Source: Crocosphaera watsonii WH 8501 (GTDB lineage Bacteria; Cyanobacteriota; Cyanobacteriia; Cyanobacteriales; Microcystaceae). Taken from it: a DNA stretch of 64,000 nt. This document shows, in pieces, positions 2,917 to 53,882 of the stretch. Each line of letters starts with the position of its first letter. Within the stretch, counting starts at the first letter, position 1. The notes below the pieces were generated by a model. The model saw only the letters and a program-made list of their open reading frames with translations, made no database searches and was not told the origin of the DNA. The stretch lies in contig NZ_AADV02000003.1 of the NCBI RefSeq assembly GCF_000167195.1, positions 1 to 64,000 of the forward strand. The letters are read 5' to 3'. The translations under genes were made by a program, and so were the position numbers.

Positions 2917-3597
2917 ATGGAGATTAAAGCCGTTCAAGCTGGTTATTACGGAGATACTAATTTTCGTACTCCCCCACCAGATTTAGAATCCTTACTACTA
3001 AAAGAGCGTATCATCTATTTAGGATTACCTCTGTTCTCTTCAGATGAAATTAAACAACAAGTTGGTATTGACGTTACTCAACTGATTATCGCTCAATTGC
3101 TCTATTTACAGTTCGATAACCCCGAGAAACCCATTTATTTCTACATCAACTCTACGGGGACATCTTGGTACACAGGGGATGCCATTGGTTTTGAAACTGA
3201 AGCCTTTGCCATTTGCGATACCATGAACTACATTAAACCCCCCATCCATACCATTTGTATTGGTCAGGCCATGGGAACCGCAGCCATGATCTTATCTGCT
3301 GGTACAAAGGGCTGTCGTGCCAGTCTTCCCCATGCTACCATCGTCCTTAATCAAAACCGTTCCGGCGCGCAAGGTCAAGCAACAGATATTCAAATTCGCG
3401 CTAAAGAGGTTTTGCAAAATAAGCAGACCATGTTAACAATATTGGCCGAAAATACCGGACAAACTGCTGAAAAAATTGCCAAAGATATCGATCGCACTTT
3501 CTATTTAACCCCCGCAAAAGCCAAAGAATATGGGTTAATTGATCGCGTCTTAGAAAGTACAAAAGAACTTCCTAAAGCCTTAAGTCCTGTTGGTTAA
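2917..3597 (+). CDS. clpR: ClpR, catalytically inactive ClpP paralogue
   Basis: About 226 residues from the ATG at 2917; a GTG at 2875 would add 14 residues, but MEIKAVQAGYYGD is the more typical beginning. The fold is ClpP, but two members of the catalytic triad are lost: the nucleophile serine of GLAASMGS is replaced in 'GQAMGTAAM' (Gly at about residue 120) and the histidine of MIHQP becomes Asn (VLNQN, about residue 145). The ClpP-like Asp region remains. Cyanobacteria and chloroplasts build mixed ClpP3/R rings in which R subunits are structural. It lies 149 bp upstream of active clpP in the same direction, the usual clpR-clpP pair. Confidence 0.92.
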   Translation: MEIKAVQAGYYGDTNFRTPPPDLESLLLKERIIYLGLPLFSSDEIKQQVGIDVTQLIIAQLLYLQFDNPEKPIYFYINSTGTSWYTGDAIGFETEAFAICDTMNYIKPPIHTICIGQAMGTAAMILSAGTKGCRASLPHATIVLNQNRSGAQGQATDIQIRAKEVLQNKQTMLTILAENTGQTAEKIAKDIDRTFYLTPAKAKEYGLIDRVLESTKELPKALSPVG

Positions 3598-3746
3598 TTA
3601 CTGTTTACCCCGAGTTCACAATAAGTTGGGAGTCAGACCAAGTGGTGGGTGATAAAGATTATATTCTCGCAAAAAATCATTTAACTCCGAACTGCGAACC
3701 CCTAACTCCGAACTCACCTTATTTACTTTTACTTTGAGTTAAGCTT
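3598..3746. other. clpR-clpP spacer with heptamer repeats
   Basis: No gene. Contains degenerate copies of the heptamer family aactccg/aacccct (about 3686-3717), the same family found at 55421. Confidence 0.5.
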
Positions 3747-4349
3747 ATGCCTATTGGTGTTCCTAGTGTTCCTTATCGTCTTCCTGGTAGTCAATACGAA
3801 CGATGGATTGATATCTATACTCGTTTAGGCCAAGAAAGAATCATTTTCCTCGGTCAAGAAGTAAGCGATGGTATCGCTAACCGTATTGTTGCTTTACTGT
3901 TATATCTTGATTCCGACGATCCCAATAAACCCATTTATCTCTATATAAACTCCCCTGGGGGTTCTGTGACTGCGGGTATGGCCATTTACGATACCATGCA
4001 GTACATAAAATCTGAGGTCATTACCATCTGTGTTGGTTTGGCTGCGTCTATGGGGTCATTTTTATTGGCCGCAGGAACCCCTGGAAAGCGTTTAGCCCTA
4101 CCCCACGCCAGAATTATGATTCACCAACCTCTGGGGGGAACCGGAGGAAGACGACAAGCGACGGATATTGAGATCGAAGCCAATGAAATTCTTCGTATTC
4201 GCGCCCAGTTGAATCAACTGTTAGCAGATCAATGTGGACAGTCTCTCGAAAAGATCGAAAAAGATACTGACCGAGATTATTTTATGTCTGCTGAAGAAGC
4301 CAAAGAATATGGCCTGATTGATAAGGTAATTGACGAAAAAAGCCTTTAG
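3747..4349 (+). CDS. clpP: ATP-dependent Clp protease proteolytic subunit
   Basis: 200 residues, full length. The catalytic triad is intact: Ser101 in 'GLAASMGSF', His126 in 'MIHQP' and Asp175 in 'KDTDRDYF'. ClpP forms a barrel-shaped serine protease fed by ClpC or ClpX; together with ClpR, whose gene lies just upstream, it would make the heteromeric ring found in cyanobacteria. A hairpin follows the stop codon. Confidence 0.97.
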
Positions 4350-4386
4350 TTAGTCAACCCATTGGTAATGGTTGTATTGATAATCT

Positions 4387-4415
4387 CCCCCATGATCTTA
4401 AATTGATTATGGGGG
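4387..4415 (+). terminator. Hairpin after clpP, probable terminator
   Basis: cccccat pairs with atggggg around about 15 nt, extended by gatc/gatt. The following T tract is weak (tacttt), so termination strength is uncertain. Confidence 0.5.
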
Positions 4416-4575
4416 TACTTTCATGGAAGTTTTCAATCTTATTTTTACTAAATAAACACCTAAGAAGTTGTTAATTTCTTCAACAATAACATTTAGAATC
4501 CTTACCCTTTCAGTCACAGGGAAAGAGTAAGGATTTTCAAAGCTTATCCCTTTTAGCTTAAATCTCGGAAGAAGC

Positions 4576-4617
4576 CCCACGCCGTAAACACTATAAAAAA
4601 CCACGTTTCGGCGTGGG
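4576..4617. repeat. IS605-type end hairpin
   Basis: ccccacgccg (from 4575) pairs with cggcgtggg (to 4617). Position and form suggest the left-end hairpin belonging to the TnpB fragment that begins at 4759. Confidence 0.5.
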
Positions 4618-4619
4618 AC

Positions 4620-4666
4620 GGTTGCTCAAATGATTTGCCGTGCAACGACAAATCATTTGAGCAACC
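4620..4666. repeat. Perfect 18-bp inverted repeat
   Basis: Arms 4620-4637 (ggttgctcaaatgatttg) and 4649-4666 are perfect reverse complements around an 11-nt loop. It lies between the IS605-type hairpin and the TnpB fragment; probably part of the same left end or of a nested element. Confidence 0.7.
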
Positions 4667-4758
4667 TCATGAATTTCGAGCAATAAATTAACCGCGTAGC
4701 GTCCACATTTTCCAAATATGTGTTATCATAATTTATACAAAACCCAGTTTACTCTAAT

Positions 4759-4965
4759 ATGCTCAAGGTCGTCAAAATCAGGCTATATCCAAATACAGAA
4801 CAAAAGCAGTCACTAGAGCAAAGCTTTGGTAATGCCCGTTGGCTGTGGAATCATTGCCTTAACTTGATGAACCAAACTTATGTAGATACTGGAAAAGGCT
4901 TGTCAGGATATGAGATTAAAAAACTTATACCTGAGTTAAAGAAGGAATACGAATGGTTGTCTCTA
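4759..4965 (+). pseudogene. TnpB N-terminal fragment cut by IS630
   Basis: The first ~69 residues match the TnpB N-terminal helix-turn-helix (KIRLYPNTEQKQSLEQSFGN, ARWLWNHCLNL). The frame then runs straight into the terminal repeat of IS630 copy 1 at the TA dinucleotide 4964-4965. The RuvC and zinc-ribbon parts are missing and are not found on the other side of the IS. Confidence 0.85.
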
Positions 4966-4993
4966 GTGCAGCTTAGCAAAAATAATCCACCAG

Positions 4994-5635
4994 TCACTTA
5001 TGATCTTTAAAGCCCTTAAATTTCCAAACGAACGGCTTAGCAAAATGTTGATTAAAGTAATCAATAAAGTTGAGAATTTTTTGGGATAGTTCTTCAGTTG
5101 AACGGACAGTAATTCTTTTGAGTAAACGCCTGACTAAGATCGAAAACCAACACTCAATTTGATTAAGCCACGATGTATGTTTGGGAATATAAACAAAGCG
5201 AATTCGATGAGATTCATCTGATAAAAAATCTGCTCTGCTGTCCATAGATTGCAAAATCCCCTCCTTTCCTTTTCTCCCCAAATCAATAGTAATTTCACAG
5301 CTTTCTGCTACTAATTTGACTAAGCTTTCCGATTTATGAGTGTTGAGTTGATCTACAATAAAAATTCATTCTGCTTTTTCATCAATCTTAATCGTTCTCT
5401 GGATATGTTCAGAAAAATCTTGTTCTGTTCTTGTCGGTCCAATAGAGGGACTAACAACTTTTCCTCTTGCCACATCCCAGTTCGCAATCAAGCTTAAAGT
5501 TCCGTGTCTTTCATATTCAAATTCGATTTTTTCTACTTGTTTAGGCTTGATTCTTTTGTTCGGAAATAATCTCTCAAGAGCTTGAATCCCTGTCATTTCA
5601 TCTGTACTAATTAAATGAATTCCTTGTTCTAACAA
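4994..5635 (-). pseudogene. IS630 transposase, DDE half (nonsense-interrupted)
   Basis: Catalytic half of the IS630 transposase with DDE motifs 'STDEMTG', 'VDQLNTH' and 'LNQIECWF'. Compared with copy 2, the Trp of 'EKAEWIFIV' is TGA here (about 5366-5368), splitting the frame into 5366-5635 and 4994-5281. The substitution is a single base, so this copy should be unable to supply transposase. Confidence 0.85.
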
Positions 5636-5699
5636 AGTTTTAGCTTCTTGATGAAGTTCACAGATATATTTGACTTGCTTTTTAAATTTTAAGGGATCA

Positions 5700-6236
5700 T
5701 CAATTTTGGCATTTAACCAGTAACGAACGAGATGTGGTTGTAATGTCGCTTCTTTTTAAAAAACGCCCCACACTACGGGGGGAAATCTTTTCGACAATTC
5801 CTCTTTTTATGGCTTCATCCGCCAACTCTGAAGGTGTCCAATGGCTCACTGGTCTGTCTGATTTTTCACATTCTTCACAAGCGATCGCTACAATCTGGAC
5901 TACTTGTTCGACCGTAAAGGATTTTGTTGTTCCAGGTCTTGGGCGATCGCTTAAAATTCCTTTGATCAAGACCATTAATGCTTTCTCCGTTACCTGTTGT
6001 TCTTCGGCTGCACTCAGTTTTTCTCTCTCCTCAAACCATCGCGATCGCCACTGACGCACTTGTACTCGGTCTAATTCTAATCTTCGACTAATCGAACTAT
6101 TGCTCTCTCCTGATGCTGCGGCTAAGATTAGCTTGGCTCGTCTAACAAGGCGATAGGGGTTTGTTGTCCCTCTCACTATTTGTTGGAGTACTGTTTTCTG
6201 TAGGTTGGAGAGGTTAATTGGCAATGCTTTTATCAT
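5700..6236 (-). CDS. IS630 transposase, N-terminal HTH half
   Basis: About 178 residues from MIKALPINLSNLQK; further starts up to 6281 lie in the end of the element. It carries the homeodomain-like HTH of IS630/Tc1 transposases (SNSSISRRLELDRVQVRQWRSRW). The frame leaves the DDE half at a T6A5 tract (plus-strand coordinates 5753-5763): translation beyond it in the +1 frame gives KEATLQPHLVRYWLNAK, the expected linker into the catalytic domain. All three copies share this tract, so it may be a frameshift or slippage site. Confidence 0.8.
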   Translation of the reverse strand: MIKALPINLSNLQKTVLQQIVRGTTNPYRLVRRAKLILAAASGESNSSISRRLELDRVQVRQWRSRWFEEREKLSAAEEQQVTEKALMVLIKGILSDRPRPGTTKSFTVEQVVQIVAIACEECEKSDRPVSHWTPSELADEAIKRGIVEKISPRSVGRFLKRSDITTTSRSLLVKCQN

Positions 6237-6345
6237 GGACATCAACTTCGAGATTCTTCCGTTAGTTTCATTGAAACACATTGTCGTGGCTAGTCACGAA
6301 ACTTTCTGTAAAAATCTGGTGGATTACTTTCGCCAAGCTGCACTA

Positions 6346-6716
6346 GGATTTGTTTCAAGACCTCTATATTTATTCAGTCAGTTTTTTCAAGATAAAGCCA
6401 TTGAGAAATTGTTAGGAGAAAGAATCAAACCTGATTACCTTAATGATGATAAAATTGGGAGAGTAATGGATGAATTATATAAATATGGACTAAATGATAT
6501 TTTTATTGAAGTAGTTTTAGAAGTAATTAAAAAATTTAAAATAGACCTTAAATACTCCCATTTAGATTCCACATCATTTCATTTAGATGGAGAATATAAA
6601 AGGGAAGAAGATAAAGAGAAACAGGAAGAAAAAAAAATTATTAAAGAAAGACCAATTTTTATTAAGAAAGGATATTCTCGGGATCATAGACCAGACTTAA
6701 AACAAGGTGATTTCCA
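6346..6716 (+). pseudogene. IS1634-family transposase internal fragment
   Basis: About 124 codons in one frame directly from the right end of IS630 copy 1. 'NDDKIGRVMDELYKYGLNDIF' and 'LDSTSFHLDGEY' are characteristic of IS1634 (DUF4277) transposases, the second containing the first catalytic Asp. The N-terminus is missing at the IS630 junction and the C-terminus is replaced after about 6716 by repeat DNA. A remnant with no function of its own. Confidence 0.8.
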
Positions 6717-22050: not shown

Positions 22051-22350
22051 ATGATAAAAATCACTTCTATTAGTCTAACTGCCTTGTTCACAACCTTTGG
22101 GTTTATTTTACCCGTTAGAGCCGAAAATTTAGCCCATTTAAGCCAATTATTGTCTACAAAACAATGTCAACTTTGTGACTTAACCGGTTCAGGGTTAGTT
22201 ATGGCGGATCTCAGGGGAGCCTCTTTAATTGGGGCTAATTTAGCCGGAGCTAATCTTTCTCAAGCCAATTTAGCTGGAGCCGATCTCAGGGGGGCGAACT
22301 TAACTGGAGCGTCTCTATACGGAGCAAATTTAACTGGTGCTAACTTGAGT
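22051..22350 (+). pseudogene. Secreted pentapeptide-repeat protein, 3'-truncated
   Basis: A signal peptide ([21 protein letters not shown]), a Cys-containing linker (KQCQLCDL) and then at least ten A(D/N)LxG-type pentapeptides forming a right-handed beta helix. The gene is cut at TA 22350-22351 by IS630 copy 2; the stop used now is inside the IS. Many proteins of this type in cyanobacteria are about 100-150 residues long, so only a few repeats may be missing. Confidence 0.85.
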
Positions 22351-22379
22351 AGTGCAGCTTAGCAAAAATAATCCACCAG

Positions 22380-23021
22380 TCACTTATGATCTTTAAAGCC
22401 CTTAAATTTCCAAACGAACGGCTTAGCAAAATGTTGATTAAAGTAATCAATAAAATTGAGAATTTTTTGGGATAGTTCTTCAGTTGAACGGACAGTAATT
22501 CTTTTGAGTAAACGCCGGACTAAGATCGAAAACCAACACTCAATTTGATTAAGCCACGATGTATGTTTGGGAATATAAACAAAGCGAATTCGATGAGATT
22601 CATCTGATAAAAAATCTGCTCTGCTGTCCATAGATTGCAAAATCCTCTCCTTTCCTTTTCTCCCCAAATCAATAGTAATTCCACAGCTTTCTGCTACTAA
22701 TTTGACTAAGCTTTCCGATTTATGAGTGTTGAGTTGATCTACAATAAAAATCCATTCTGCTTTTTCATCAATCTTAATCGTTCTCTGGATATGTTCAGAA
22801 AAATCTTGTTCTGTTCTTGTCGGTCCAATAGAGGGACTAACAACTTTTCCTCTTGCCACATCCCAGTTCGCAATCAAGCTTAAAGTTCCGTGTCTTTCAT
22901 ATTCAAATTCGATTTTTTCTACTTGTTTAGGCTTGATTCTTTTGTTCGGAAATAATCTCTCAAGAGCTTGAATCCCTGTCATTTCATCTGTACTAATTAA
23001 ATGAATTCCTTGTTCTAACAA
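22380..23021 (-). CDS. IS630 transposase, intact DDE half
   Basis: 213 residues from MLEQGIHLIS to KGFKDHK. All three acidic motifs are present: 'STDEMTG', 'FIVDQLNTH' and 'LNQIECWFSIL'. The true upstream continuation, in the same frame back to the T6A5 tract at 23139-23149, encodes 'EATLQPHLVRYWLNAKIDDP', so the protein would be made as a fusion with the HTH half by frameshifting or slippage. Confidence 0.88.
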   Translation of the reverse strand: MLEQGIHLISTDEMTGIQALERLFPNKRIKPKQVEKIEFEYERHGTLSLIANWDVARGKVVSPSIGPTRTEQDFSEHIQRTIKIDEKAEWIFIVDQLNTHKSESLVKLVAESCGITIDLGRKGKERILQSMDSRADFLSDESHRIRFVYIPKHTSWLNQIECWFSILVRRLLKRITVRSTEELSQKILNFIDYFNQHFAKPFVWKFKGFKDHK

Positions 23022-23085
23022 AGTTTTAGCTTCTTGATGAAGTTCACAGATATATTTGACTTGCTTTTTAAATTTTAAGGGATCA

Positions 23086-23622
23086 TCAATTTTGGCATTT
23101 AACCAGTAACGAATGAGATGTGGTTGTAATGTCGCTTCTTTTTAAAAAACGCCCCACACTACGGGGGGAAATCTTTTCGACAATTCCTCTTTTTATGGCT
23201 TCATCCGCCAACTCTAAAGGTGTCCAATGGCTCACTGGTCTGTCTGATTTTTCACATTCTTCACAAGCGATCGCTACAATCTGGACTACTTGTTCGACCG
23301 TAAAGGATTTTGTTGTTCCAGGTCTTGGGCGATCGCTTAAAATTCCTTTGATCAAGACCATTAATGCTTTCTCCGTTACCTGTTGTTCTTCGGCGGCACT
23401 CAGTTTTTCTCTCTCCTCAAACCATCGCGATCGCCACTGACGCACTTGTACTCGGTCTAATTCTAATCTTCGACTAATCGAACTATTGCTCTCTCCTGAT
23501 GCTGCGGCTAAGATTAGCTTGGCTCGTCTAACAAGGCGATAGGGGTTTGTTGTCCCTCTCACTATTTGTTGGAGTACTGTTTTCTGTAGGTTGGAGAGGT
23601 TAATTGGCAATGCTTTTATCAT
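23086..23622 (-). CDS. IS630 transposase, N-terminal HTH half
   Basis: Same as in copy 1 (one or two residue changes, e.g. WTPLELAD for WTPSELAD, SHSLL for SRSLL). The frame stays open for about 25 codons past the T6A5 tract, giving a tail (RSDITTTSHSLLVKCQN) that is not expected in the family and is probably just out-of-frame reading. Confidence 0.8.
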   Translation of the reverse strand: MIKALPINLSNLQKTVLQQIVRGTTNPYRLVRRAKLILAAASGESNSSISRRLELDRVQVRQWRSRWFEEREKLSAAEEQQVTEKALMVLIKGILSDRPRPGTTKSFTVEQVVQIVAIACEECEKSDRPVSHWTPLELADEAIKRGIVEKISPRSVGRFLKRSDITTTSHSLLVKCQN

Positions 23623-23731
23623 GGACATCAACTTCGAGATTCTTCCGTTAGTTTCATTGAAACACATTGTCGTGGCTAGTCACGAAAGTTTCTGTAAAAA
23701 TCTGGTGGATTACTTTCGCCAAGCTGCACTA

Positions 23732-50790: not shown

Positions 50791-50880
50791 TTAACCATCA
50801 AAACAAAATTGTGATATCATACAATTGATGAATAAATTGCCTATTTTTTACCCAAAATCACCCGTAGGGGTTTAACACTG

Positions 50881-50939
50881 TTAAACCCACACAAGGTTAA
50901 ACCCACACAAGGTTAAACCCACACAAGGTTAAACCAACC
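50881..50939. repeat. 16-bp direct tandem repeats
   Basis: ttaaacccacacaagg is present three times exactly, then a partial copy (ttaaaccaacc). There are no spacers, so this is not CRISPR. Followed by ggtaaaa/agggtaaa tracts up to 51037. Confidence 0.85.
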
Positions 50940-51037
50940 TAAACCCCATTTTTCCCCAAAAAATCGATCCGCGCTGACGCGCGTCTATAAGGGTAAAGTT
51001 GAGAGGGTAAAGGGCAAAAGGGTAAAAGGGTAAAGGG

Positions 51038-52500
51038 TTAGAGAGTTCTCCCGAACACACATACTAACCGAAAAGCGCCATTGTCGTTGCGGTCTTCGCG
51101 CCTATAGTCGTTGACGCGAATCGCGGAACGGCAGTTATTAGGAATGCTGACCCAAGAACCGCCTCGCAGACTCTTACATTGAGAATTATTAGCAAGAAGA
51201 ATATTGGGTGCAAAAGAGGCTGAAACCAGCATCACTGCGTTTGCAGTTACCTTGTTTGCGTCTTGTTGAAAATTCTTATTATTAGCCTGATAATTTTTTT
51301 CATAATCATCTTGACACCATTCCCAGACATTACCGTGCATATCATGCAACCCAAAGCCATTAGCTGGAAAACTACCGACTTCCGTTGTTTCTTGGCGATA
51401 AACCCCTTTTTTACTCTCTCCATACACATACTTACCGTTATAGTTAGCAATATCTGTACTCAAGGTTTCCCCATAATAAAAGGGGGTAGTTGTCCCTCCA
51501 CGACAAGCATACTCCCATTGCGCTTCTGTGGGTAAGGTAAACGTTAACCCCGTTTTTTCTGACAGTTTCTCACAAAACTCTTGACAATCATTCCAAGAAA
51601 CCTTTTCTACAGGATATTTACCCCCTTTCTTAAAGGATGCAGGGTTATTTCCCATAATAGCTTGCCATTGTTCCTGGGTAACTTCATATTTACCTATATA
51701 AAAATCATCTACCGTCACTTGCTGTTGCGCTTCATCATCATCCCTTCCCTCTTCACTTTCAGGGGAACCCATCATAAACGTTCCCCCTGGTATCTGTACC
51801 ATATCCAAAAAGACATCATTCCCTAAGTCAACAGCAAACTGTGTCCCTTGTTTGGTTTGTCGTTGAATAATGTTTCCTTGGGGATCAACTTTCACCGTCT
51901 CAAAACTAAAGGTTTCTAGAGGAAAACCCCCTACAGTTGGAGTCGGAGAAGGAATGGGAGGAATAGGAGAAGGAGTCAATAACTTTCTTATTACAGCAAA
52001 CACCCCAACGGAAACAACACCTATCCCTCCATATCCCAAATATTGTAAAAACTTTCGTCTATTTTTCTGTTGCGGTTGAGAAGGAGTTTGTATCTGAGTT
52101 GGTTGTATAGGTTGACTCTGTTTCTGTTGCGCAATAGTTGGGGAAGTAGAAGAAGATGTTTGACTCTGTTTCTGTTGCGCAATAGTTGGAGATGAAGAAG
52201 ATGGTGTTTGACTCAACTGTTGTGCAACAGTTGAGGGAGCAGCAGAAGGTGTTTGACTCTGTTTCTGTTGCGCAATAGTTGGAGATGAAGAAGATGGTGT
52301 TTGACTCTGTTGCTGTTGCGCAATAGTTTCTAATGCGGTTAAAACCTCCGTTGCTGACTGATAGCGATCGCTTCTATCCTTCTGTAATAACTTATCTAAA
52401 ACCTGCTTTAACTCATCACTAATAGGTTGCTGTAGATGAGTTGGCCACTGTTTCACCCATTGATAACCCTGCTCTAACAATAACTCGTAAGGATCAACCC
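51038..52500 (-). pseudogene. Ser/Thr kinase-FGE fusion, 5'-truncated
   Basis: What remains: the end of a kinase C-lobe ('GYQWVKQWPTHLQQPISDELK', 'LLQKDRSDRYQSATEVLTAL'), a repetitive linker built of 'SSSPTIAQQKQSQT' units, one membrane helix ('YGGIGVVSVGVFAVIRKLL') and a formylglycine-generating-enzyme/SUMF1 domain ('PGGTFMMGSP', 'YIGKYEVTQEQWQAIMG', 'LPTEAQWEYACRGG', 'MHGNVWEWCQDDY', 'SLRGGSW'). The kinase ATP lobe, HRD and DFG are gone because IS630 copy 3 sits at TA 52501-52502. Before GGSW there is an atypical ~40-residue insert (AVMLVSASFAPNILLANN). The last ~35 residues have the pattern of a DGR variable region. Confidence 0.87.
51041..51170 (-). other. Putative diversity-generating retroelement variable region
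   Basis: The FGE C-terminus reads 'LRGGSWVSIPNNCRSAIRVN', then 'DYRREDRNDNGAFRLVCVFG'. Cyanobacterial DGR targets of the FGE/C-type-lectin fold end in an Asn-rich version of this (e.g. CRSANRNNN, NNxGFR). The residues seen at Asn-rich positions (V, S, I, D, Y, R, E) can mostly arise by substitution at adenines of AAY codons. The segment is also more GC-rich than its surroundings. No template repeat or DGR RT is in the window. Confidence 0.55.
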
Positions 52501-52530
52501 TAGTGCAGCTTAGCAAAAATAATCCACCAG

Positions 52531-53172
52531 TCACTTATGATCTTTAAAGCCCTTAAATTTCCAAACGAACGGCTTAGCAAAATGTTGATTAAAGTAATCA
52601 ATAAAATTGAGAATTTTTTGGGATAGTTCTTCAGTTGAACGGACAGTAATTCTTTTGAGTAAACGCCTGACTAAGATCTAAAACCAACACTCAATTTGAT
52701 TAAGCCACGATGTATGTTTGGGAATATAAACAAAGCGAATTCGATGAGATTCATCTGATAAAAAATCTGCTCTGCTGTCCATAGATTGCAAAATCCCCTC
52801 CTTTCCTTTTCTCCCCAAATCAATAGTAATTCCACAGCTTTCTGCTACTAATTTGACTAAGCTTTCCGATTTATGAGTGTTGAGTTGATCTACAATAAAA
52901 ATCCATTCTGCTTTTTCATCAATCTTAATCGTTCTCTGGATATGTTCAGAAAAATCTTGTTCTGTTCTTGTCGGTCCAATAGAGGGACTAACAACTTTTC
53001 CTCTTGCCACATCCCAGTTCGCAATCAAGCTTAAAGTTCCGTGTCTTTCACATTCAAATTCGATTTTTTCTACTTGTTTAGGCTTGATTCTTTTGTTCGG
53101 AAATAATCTCTCAAGAGCTTGAATCCCTGTCATTTCATCTGTACTAATTAAATGAATTCCTTGTTCTAACAA
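52531..53172 (-). pseudogene. IS630 transposase, DDE half (nonsense near the third acidic motif)
   Basis: As copy 2, but the Ser after 'NQIECWF' is TAG (52678-52680; TCG in copy 2), removing the last ~48 residues. A second change is 'FECERHG' for 'FEYERHG'. Probably inactive. Confidence 0.85.
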
Positions 53173-53236
53173 AGTTTTAGCTTCTTGATGAAGTTCACAG
53201 ATATATTTGACTTGCTTTTTAAATTTTAAGGGATCA

Positions 53237-53773
53237 TCAATTTTGGCATTTAACCAGTAACGAACGAGATGTGGTTGTAATGTCGCTTCTTTTTAAAAAA
53301 CGCCCCACACTACGGGGGGAAATCTTTTCGACAATTCCTCTTTTTATGGCTTCATCCGCCAACTCTGAAGGTGTCCAATGGCTCACTGGTCTGTCTGATT
53401 TTTCACATTCTTCACAAGCGATCTCTACAATCTGGACTACTTGTTCGACCGTAAAGGATTTTGTTGTTCCAGGTCTTGGGCGATCGCTTAAAATTCCTTT
53501 GATCAAGACCATTAATGCTTTCTCCGTTACCTGTTGTTCTTCGGCGGCACTCAGTTTTTCTCTCTCCTCAAACCATCGCGATCGCCACTGACGCACTTGT
53601 ACTCGGTCTAATTCTAATCTTCGACTAATCGAACTATTGCTCTCTCCTGATGCTGCGGCTAAGATTAGCTTGGCTCGTCTAACAAGGCGATAGGGGTTTG
53701 TTGTCCCTCTCACTATTTGTTGGAGTACTGTTTTCTGTAGGTTGGAGAGGTTAATTGGCAATGCTTTTATCAT
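53237..53773 (-). CDS. IS630 transposase, N-terminal HTH half
   Basis: Nearly identical to the same gene in copies 1 and 2 (here VQIVEIACEEC). The T6A5 tract lies at 53290-53300 and the +1 frame beyond it again gives the expected linker. Confidence 0.8.
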   Translation of the reverse strand: MIKALPINLSNLQKTVLQQIVRGTTNPYRLVRRAKLILAAASGESNSSISRRLELDRVQVRQWRSRWFEEREKLSAAEEQQVTEKALMVLIKGILSDRPRPGTTKSFTVEQVVQIVEIACEECEKSDRPVSHWTPSELADEAIKRGIVEKISPRSVGRFLKRSDITTTSRSLLVKCQN

Positions 53774-53882
53774 GGACATCAACTTCGAGATTCTTCCGTT
53801 AGTTTCATTGAAACACATTGTCGTGGCTAGTCACGAAAGTTTCTGTAAAAATCTGGTGGATTACTTTCGCCAAGCTGCACTA

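Follow-up and report, generated by a model that had tools for sequence, protein, structure and literature searches.

A probable orphaned variable region of a former diversity-generating retroelement target in Crocosphaera watsonii WH 8501

Background

Is the 3' end of a truncated kinase-FGE gene of Crocosphaera watsonii WH 8501 the variable region (VR) of a diversity-generating retroelement (DGR) and, if so, is it still being diversified? The gene lies in a stretch of 64,000 nucleotides (contig NZ_AADV02000003.1, positions 1 to 64,000; hereafter the window), in which the reverse transcriptase (RT) belongs to a group II intron. A sequence-only reading had proposed that the C-terminus of the FGE domain is such a VR and that a DGR encoded elsewhere in the genome might act on it. 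Treponema TvpA is a DGR target. Much has been published on DGRs and on the targets that they act on at a distance; to our knowledge, however, the fate of targets after loss of the mutator is hardly documented.

Among cyanobacteria, remote targets have been assigned to a DGR of the same genome (Vallota-Eastman et al. 2020, PMC7517822). In the same report, gene all3226 displayed remnant homology between template repeat (TR) and VR and had no RT nearby, while its genome keeps two DGRs.

Results

The window gene is an FGE-domain ORF of 498 aa on the minus strand (51038..52534), composed of the end of a kinase C-lobe at the N-terminus, a linker and the FGE domain. Pfam recognised one domain only, FGE-sulfatase PF03781, at residues 244-491 (E=6.8e-46). 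The kinase remnant, at 52486-52322, was recognised by its 34% identity (58 residues aligned, E=0.005) to a paralogous kinase, of which it matches residues 199-254. The ORF is still open over its 498 codons; its 3' end encodes LRGGSWVSIPNNCRSAIRVNDYRREDRNDNGAFRLVCVFGRTL with the stop exactly at 51038, and the C-terminus displays the layout GGSW-xxx-P-xx-CRSA-x-R...FR-VCVFGRTL up to the stop codon. TvpA (2y3c) was the second-best match of the window protein in a PDB sequence search (E=5.8e-20), with FGE among the relatives. Scanned against the genome-contig database, the protein matched distant FGE proteins, and none of the records could be recognised as belonging to the same genus. An AlphaFold model based on 12 sequences (mean pLDDT 54, below 50 in the VR) was too poor to place the VR residues. 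The near-invariant APxDGSAW segment of aligned relatives was missing from the window FGE domain and replaced by QANNKNFQQDANKVTANAVMLVSASFAPNI (51172-51285); the genome search yielded no second copy of this segment, which is possibly a compensated frameshift.

The kinase part is truncated by an IS630-type element on the minus strand (about 52501..53882), identified from its genome copies and its matching inverted ends (TAGTGCAGCTT / AAGCTGCACTA), with a DDE_3 transposase in two ORFs. Full or partial copies, 98-100% identical, were found at several other places of the genome. The same element occurs three times in the window (4964-6293, 22350-23679 and from 52501) with at least 99.4% identity, a level that makes recent activity likely. 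The missing kinase half was sought across the element and the gene found there was unrelated; an IS-mediated rearrangement has probably eliminated this half. The C-lobe remnant and the insertion thus agree with the earlier view of a target deprived of its kinase.

A search of the whole genome at the DNA level (6.24 Mb, a draft of 323 contigs, 99.95% complete) with the VR stretch of the window gene retrieved three other copies, at C323:289221 (81%), C211:4234 (75%) and C321:179007 (75% over 60 nt), the first two aligning along nearly the whole stretch with 75-81% nucleotide identity. The VRs were in codon register, third positions being constant and first and second positions altered. Between the window and C211, codons differed at positions 1/2/3 in 50/46/12% of cases within the VR, as compared with 33/27/47% in the rest of the domain (Fisher p=5e-4); for the other VR pairs the same test gave p=1e-6 to 0.01. 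Ordinary divergence would give the opposite pattern, whereas adenine-directed mutation of AAY codons gives this one; the DGR-like layout goes beyond chance.

A TR inferred from the four VRs, with AAC/AAT at variable codons, was searched in 59 related genomes. Three of them, all congeners, proved to contain a real TR that matched it: G004 (93%), G006 (91%) and G002 (89%), with E-values down to 5.9e-47. In G004 and G006, the TR adjoins an intact RT of about 352 aa carrying IGNLTSQ and YVDD, and the same locus contains a bAvd gene (PF22296, E=1.2e-22) as well as two FGE targets with VRs; in G006, VMAP-C and MoxR-like genes precede the DGR locus. These RTs are 66-68% identical to those of other lineages. 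All mismatches between TR and VR in these two genomes were at TR adenines (13/13, 18/18, 11/11 and 19/19 for the four VRs, 61/61 altogether). By their sequence makeup, these loci are intact DGRs of the types described in PMC7517822 and PMC10907252.

When three VRs of C. watsonii WH 8501, including that of the window, were compared with two of the congener TRs, 27 of the 33 TR adenine columns were variable as against 10 of the 80 non-adenine columns (p=2.2e-12). The window VR was tested against congener TRs only, the lineage's own TR being gone: it was changed at 14/34 adenines and 7/80 other positions of the G004 TR (p=1.2e-4) and was 81% identical to the G006 TR. Several of these seven non-adenine differences are common to sister VRs and so were probably present in the lineage's own TR. 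Two changes on the minus strand were private to the window VR, G>T at 51067 (GTA>TTA, Val>Leu) and G>C at 51075 (GGT>GCT, Gly>Ala, in the GFR motif). Private non-adenine changes also numbered two in the C323 VR and none in the four VRs of the intact G004 and G006 loci, and among VRs of congeners with no detected DGR RT two were counted in G003_b and one in G007_b; all these numbers are small, and some of the private changes may be divergence of the lineage's cognate TR.

The fourth VR, in a caspase-FGE gene (C321:179007), fitted another TR, that of G002:C34: adenines accounted for 16 of its 18 changes (p=1.3e-9). Its match to a second TR family suggests that the lineage once had two DGRs.

The core of the window VR, GGSW...VFG, extends over 51050..51163 on the minus strand, as delimited by the TR/VR comparison with congeners and by the three other VRs. 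Its 3' end, GTGTTCGGGAGAACTCTCTAA (51038..51059, minus strand), is a candidate initiation-of-homing (IMH) edge with a presumed function in homing: it is identical to the VR ends of the intact congener DGRs, while the TRs differ there (GTGTTCGGGATAACTCC or ...AAAACTCC). Differences are concentrated at TR adenines in the 3' end of a gene with the CLec/FGE fold, and the features of remote variable proteins were also observed, with a CLec module on a kinase/peptidase gene and a VR/TR identity above 50%, but in a genome without the RT. Judged from these comparisons, window 51050-51163 (minus strand) is a DGR variable region, and the domain that carries it is of the C-type-lectin/FGE kind. The adenine-focused variation, the three sister VRs and the cognate-type TR, RT and accessory gene of congeners confirm the sequence-only reading on this point. 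The GAFR/GFR layout on which it had partly relied was right as to GFR, usual in the other VRs; the GAFR of the window, however, is itself the private non-adenine departure at 51075.

Only one of the four target genes has escaped breakage. Besides the window gene, the C211 gene (trypsin-FGE) is interrupted by one in-frame TAG, and the C323 gene has kept an intact kinase but has lost its FGE domain by deletion, its VR remaining out of frame. The caspase-FGE gene (C321:178-179 kb) is open and intact.

Simple repeats were observed downstream of the VRs. Runs of CCCTTTACCCTTTTGCCC directly follow the VR stop codons in the window (51000-51037), at other loci of this genome and in congeners (L002, L058, L096-L098). 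Farther on, window positions 50868-50935 contain an inverted repeat, GGGTTTAACA/TGTTAAACCC, then three tandem copies of ACAAGGTTAAACC(C). A search for inverted repeats 3' of the VR stop yielded, within the window, nothing beyond pairs of GGGTTTAACA/TGTTAAACCC, and there was no hairpin in common with G006. A scan of viral contigs (IMG/VR) for the TR pattern returned four contigs. Two of these putative viral contigs, L226 and L227, carry an apparent full DGR (FGE target, Avd-like protein and RT with IGNLTSQ); considered as a relative of the window locus, it was rejected as a DGR of another type.

The machinery itself was not retrieved from C. watsonii WH 8501. Among the 39 RVT_1 matches listed genome-wide, all those with a readable motif 4 were of the group II type (QGG-V/I-V/I-SPLLA) and none had SQ; a DGR RT used as query against the genome likewise matched group II-type proteins only (best identity 27%). 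A search for bAvd, performed with a one-protein query and not with a family profile, gave no match in this genome, although bAvd is present in G002, G004, G006, G037 and G039, and a search of this genome for the MoxR partner gave none either. Genome searches at the DNA level with the VR and with both TR-RT cassettes (families I and II) returned only the four VRs. Of what marks an active DGR, namely a DGR-type RT with SQ and YxDD, a TR identical at non-adenine positions and Avd, nothing was found in this genome. As the assembly is 99.95% complete, a single-copy RT gene is unlikely to have been missed, which is not proof; in a draft of 323 contigs, a DGR could fall into a gap or belong to a replicon that was not assembled.

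DGR loss is repeated in the genus, where RTs range from intact to broken or missing. In G002, which by a housekeeping gene is the nearest of the genomes (89%), the orthologous RT (G002:C177, 8442-9808) is broken by a 23S_rRNA_IVP-type gene replacing residues 199-273, including YVDD. The sequence flanking this RT carries a simple tract of the GGGCAAAAGGG type, which likewise occurs downstream of VR stop codons. Two other DGR RTs with different TRs look intact in G002 (G002:C34, about 3100-6500, and G002:C39), suggesting that three DGR families existed in the genus. G007 (99% complete) has neither bAvd nor RT. Between two VR-bearing FGE targets, where these genes lie in G006, it has an IVP-type gene (G007:C179, 7033-7389), the second one observed at a lost DGR core. 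No DGR RT was found in G001, G003 and G008, an absence that is uncertain as these genomes are 79-91% complete.

Discussion

These data make it very probable that window 51050-51163 is the orphaned, frozen and decaying VR of a former remote DGR target, and that two DGRs are extinct in the lineage. In an ancestor, a DGR of the congener type (bAvd, RT and TR beside a VMAP/MoxR/FGE-target locus) made cDNA from its TR, with the errors falling on adenines, and several genes with an FGE domain received these copies at their 3' ends, as the comparisons show; the homing step is presumed from the family. This locus would then have been lost, as would a second DGR with a different TR, which diversified the caspase-FGE gene (C321:178-179 kb). 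Frozen for want of RT and TR, the VRs would now take ordinary point mutations while their host genes break up through the IS630-type cut, the TAG codon and the FGE loss. Some function may remain, as suggested by the open window ORF and the intact caspase-FGE gene.

The window protein is similar to TvpA (PDB 2y3c) in its FGE/C-type-lectin fold but differs in that its gene, of the regulator type, is truncated and lies in a genome without DGR. The targets resemble the cyanobacterial remote variable proteins (PMC7517822) in their C-terminal CLec/FGE module with a 3'-terminal VR, in the fusion to a kinase or orthocaspase and in their dispersal to sites remote from the DGR, some of them close to transposases. 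Unlike those, they are orphans, no DGR RT having been found in the genome, and the nearest precedent is all3226. The congener loci are comparable to the clade 5 MoxR/VMAP ternary conflict DGRs (PNAS 2024, PMC10907252), with VMAP-C, MoxR-like AAA, long and short FGE targets, bAvd, RT and TR. Degraded loci and transposon damage were reported for clade 5, but there each class still has a complete DGR in the same genome (PMC10907252), whereas the machinery is missing genome-wide here.

It could be considered that no DGR was ever involved and that the FGE paralogues diverged in the ordinary way, in a loop that tolerates change, since FGE C-termini vary generally and the paralogues are only about 50% identical. 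However, the variation falls on columns that are adenines in TRs retrieved independently from relatives (p=2e-12), the codon-position pattern within the VR is inverted, opposite to that of drift, and E-values down to 5.9e-47 exclude chance TR matches, so that this explanation has virtually no probability left and is counted as refuted. A more serious question is whether the VR is still diversified in trans by a DGR situated outside the assembly, in a gap, on a plasmid or in some cells of the population. Congeners do possess intact DGRs, the 3' edge of the VR is intact, and in Thiohalocapsa PB-PSB1 DGR parts absent from the reference assembly were found in long-read variants (PMC10907252). Against this stand a 99.95% complete genome with no RT, bAvd, MoxR or either TR family, the private non-adenine changes and the broken state of most targets, and we regard ongoing diversification of this kind as improbable. 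An occasional recharging of orphan VRs in trans, by a DGR present in some cells only or on a mobile replicon, appears still less probable. The group II RT of the window had rightly been set aside as the acting enzyme by the sequence-only reading; its suggestion of a DGR at work elsewhere in the genome found no support, given the missing components and the private changes. The genome search it had called for, for a TR and a DGR RT, came back empty, which speaks against ongoing diversification and leaves past diversification standing.

Alternatively, the DGR may have been removed after a useful variant arose, the frozen VR being kept by selection as a fixed binding domain. For Nostoc all3226, it was suggested that removal followed the selection of an optimal variant (PMC7517822), and two of the ORFs concerned, that of the window and the caspase-FGE gene (C321:178-179 kb), remain open. 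The loss of the window kinase, the nonsense codon of C211 and the FGE deletion of C323 are difficult to reconcile with such selection, as are the lack of the APxDGSAW segment and the two non-adenine coding changes in the window FGE domain; maintenance as a fixed domain is thus unlikely. A decaying relic of past diversification is the reading that we retain.

A genome with two lost DGRs and four VRs, in a genus with intact, broken and missing RTs, provides a natural test between discard of the mutator after a good variant and joint decay of mutator and targets. The three broken targets out of four point to decay. A VR alone must not be counted as evidence of active diversification.
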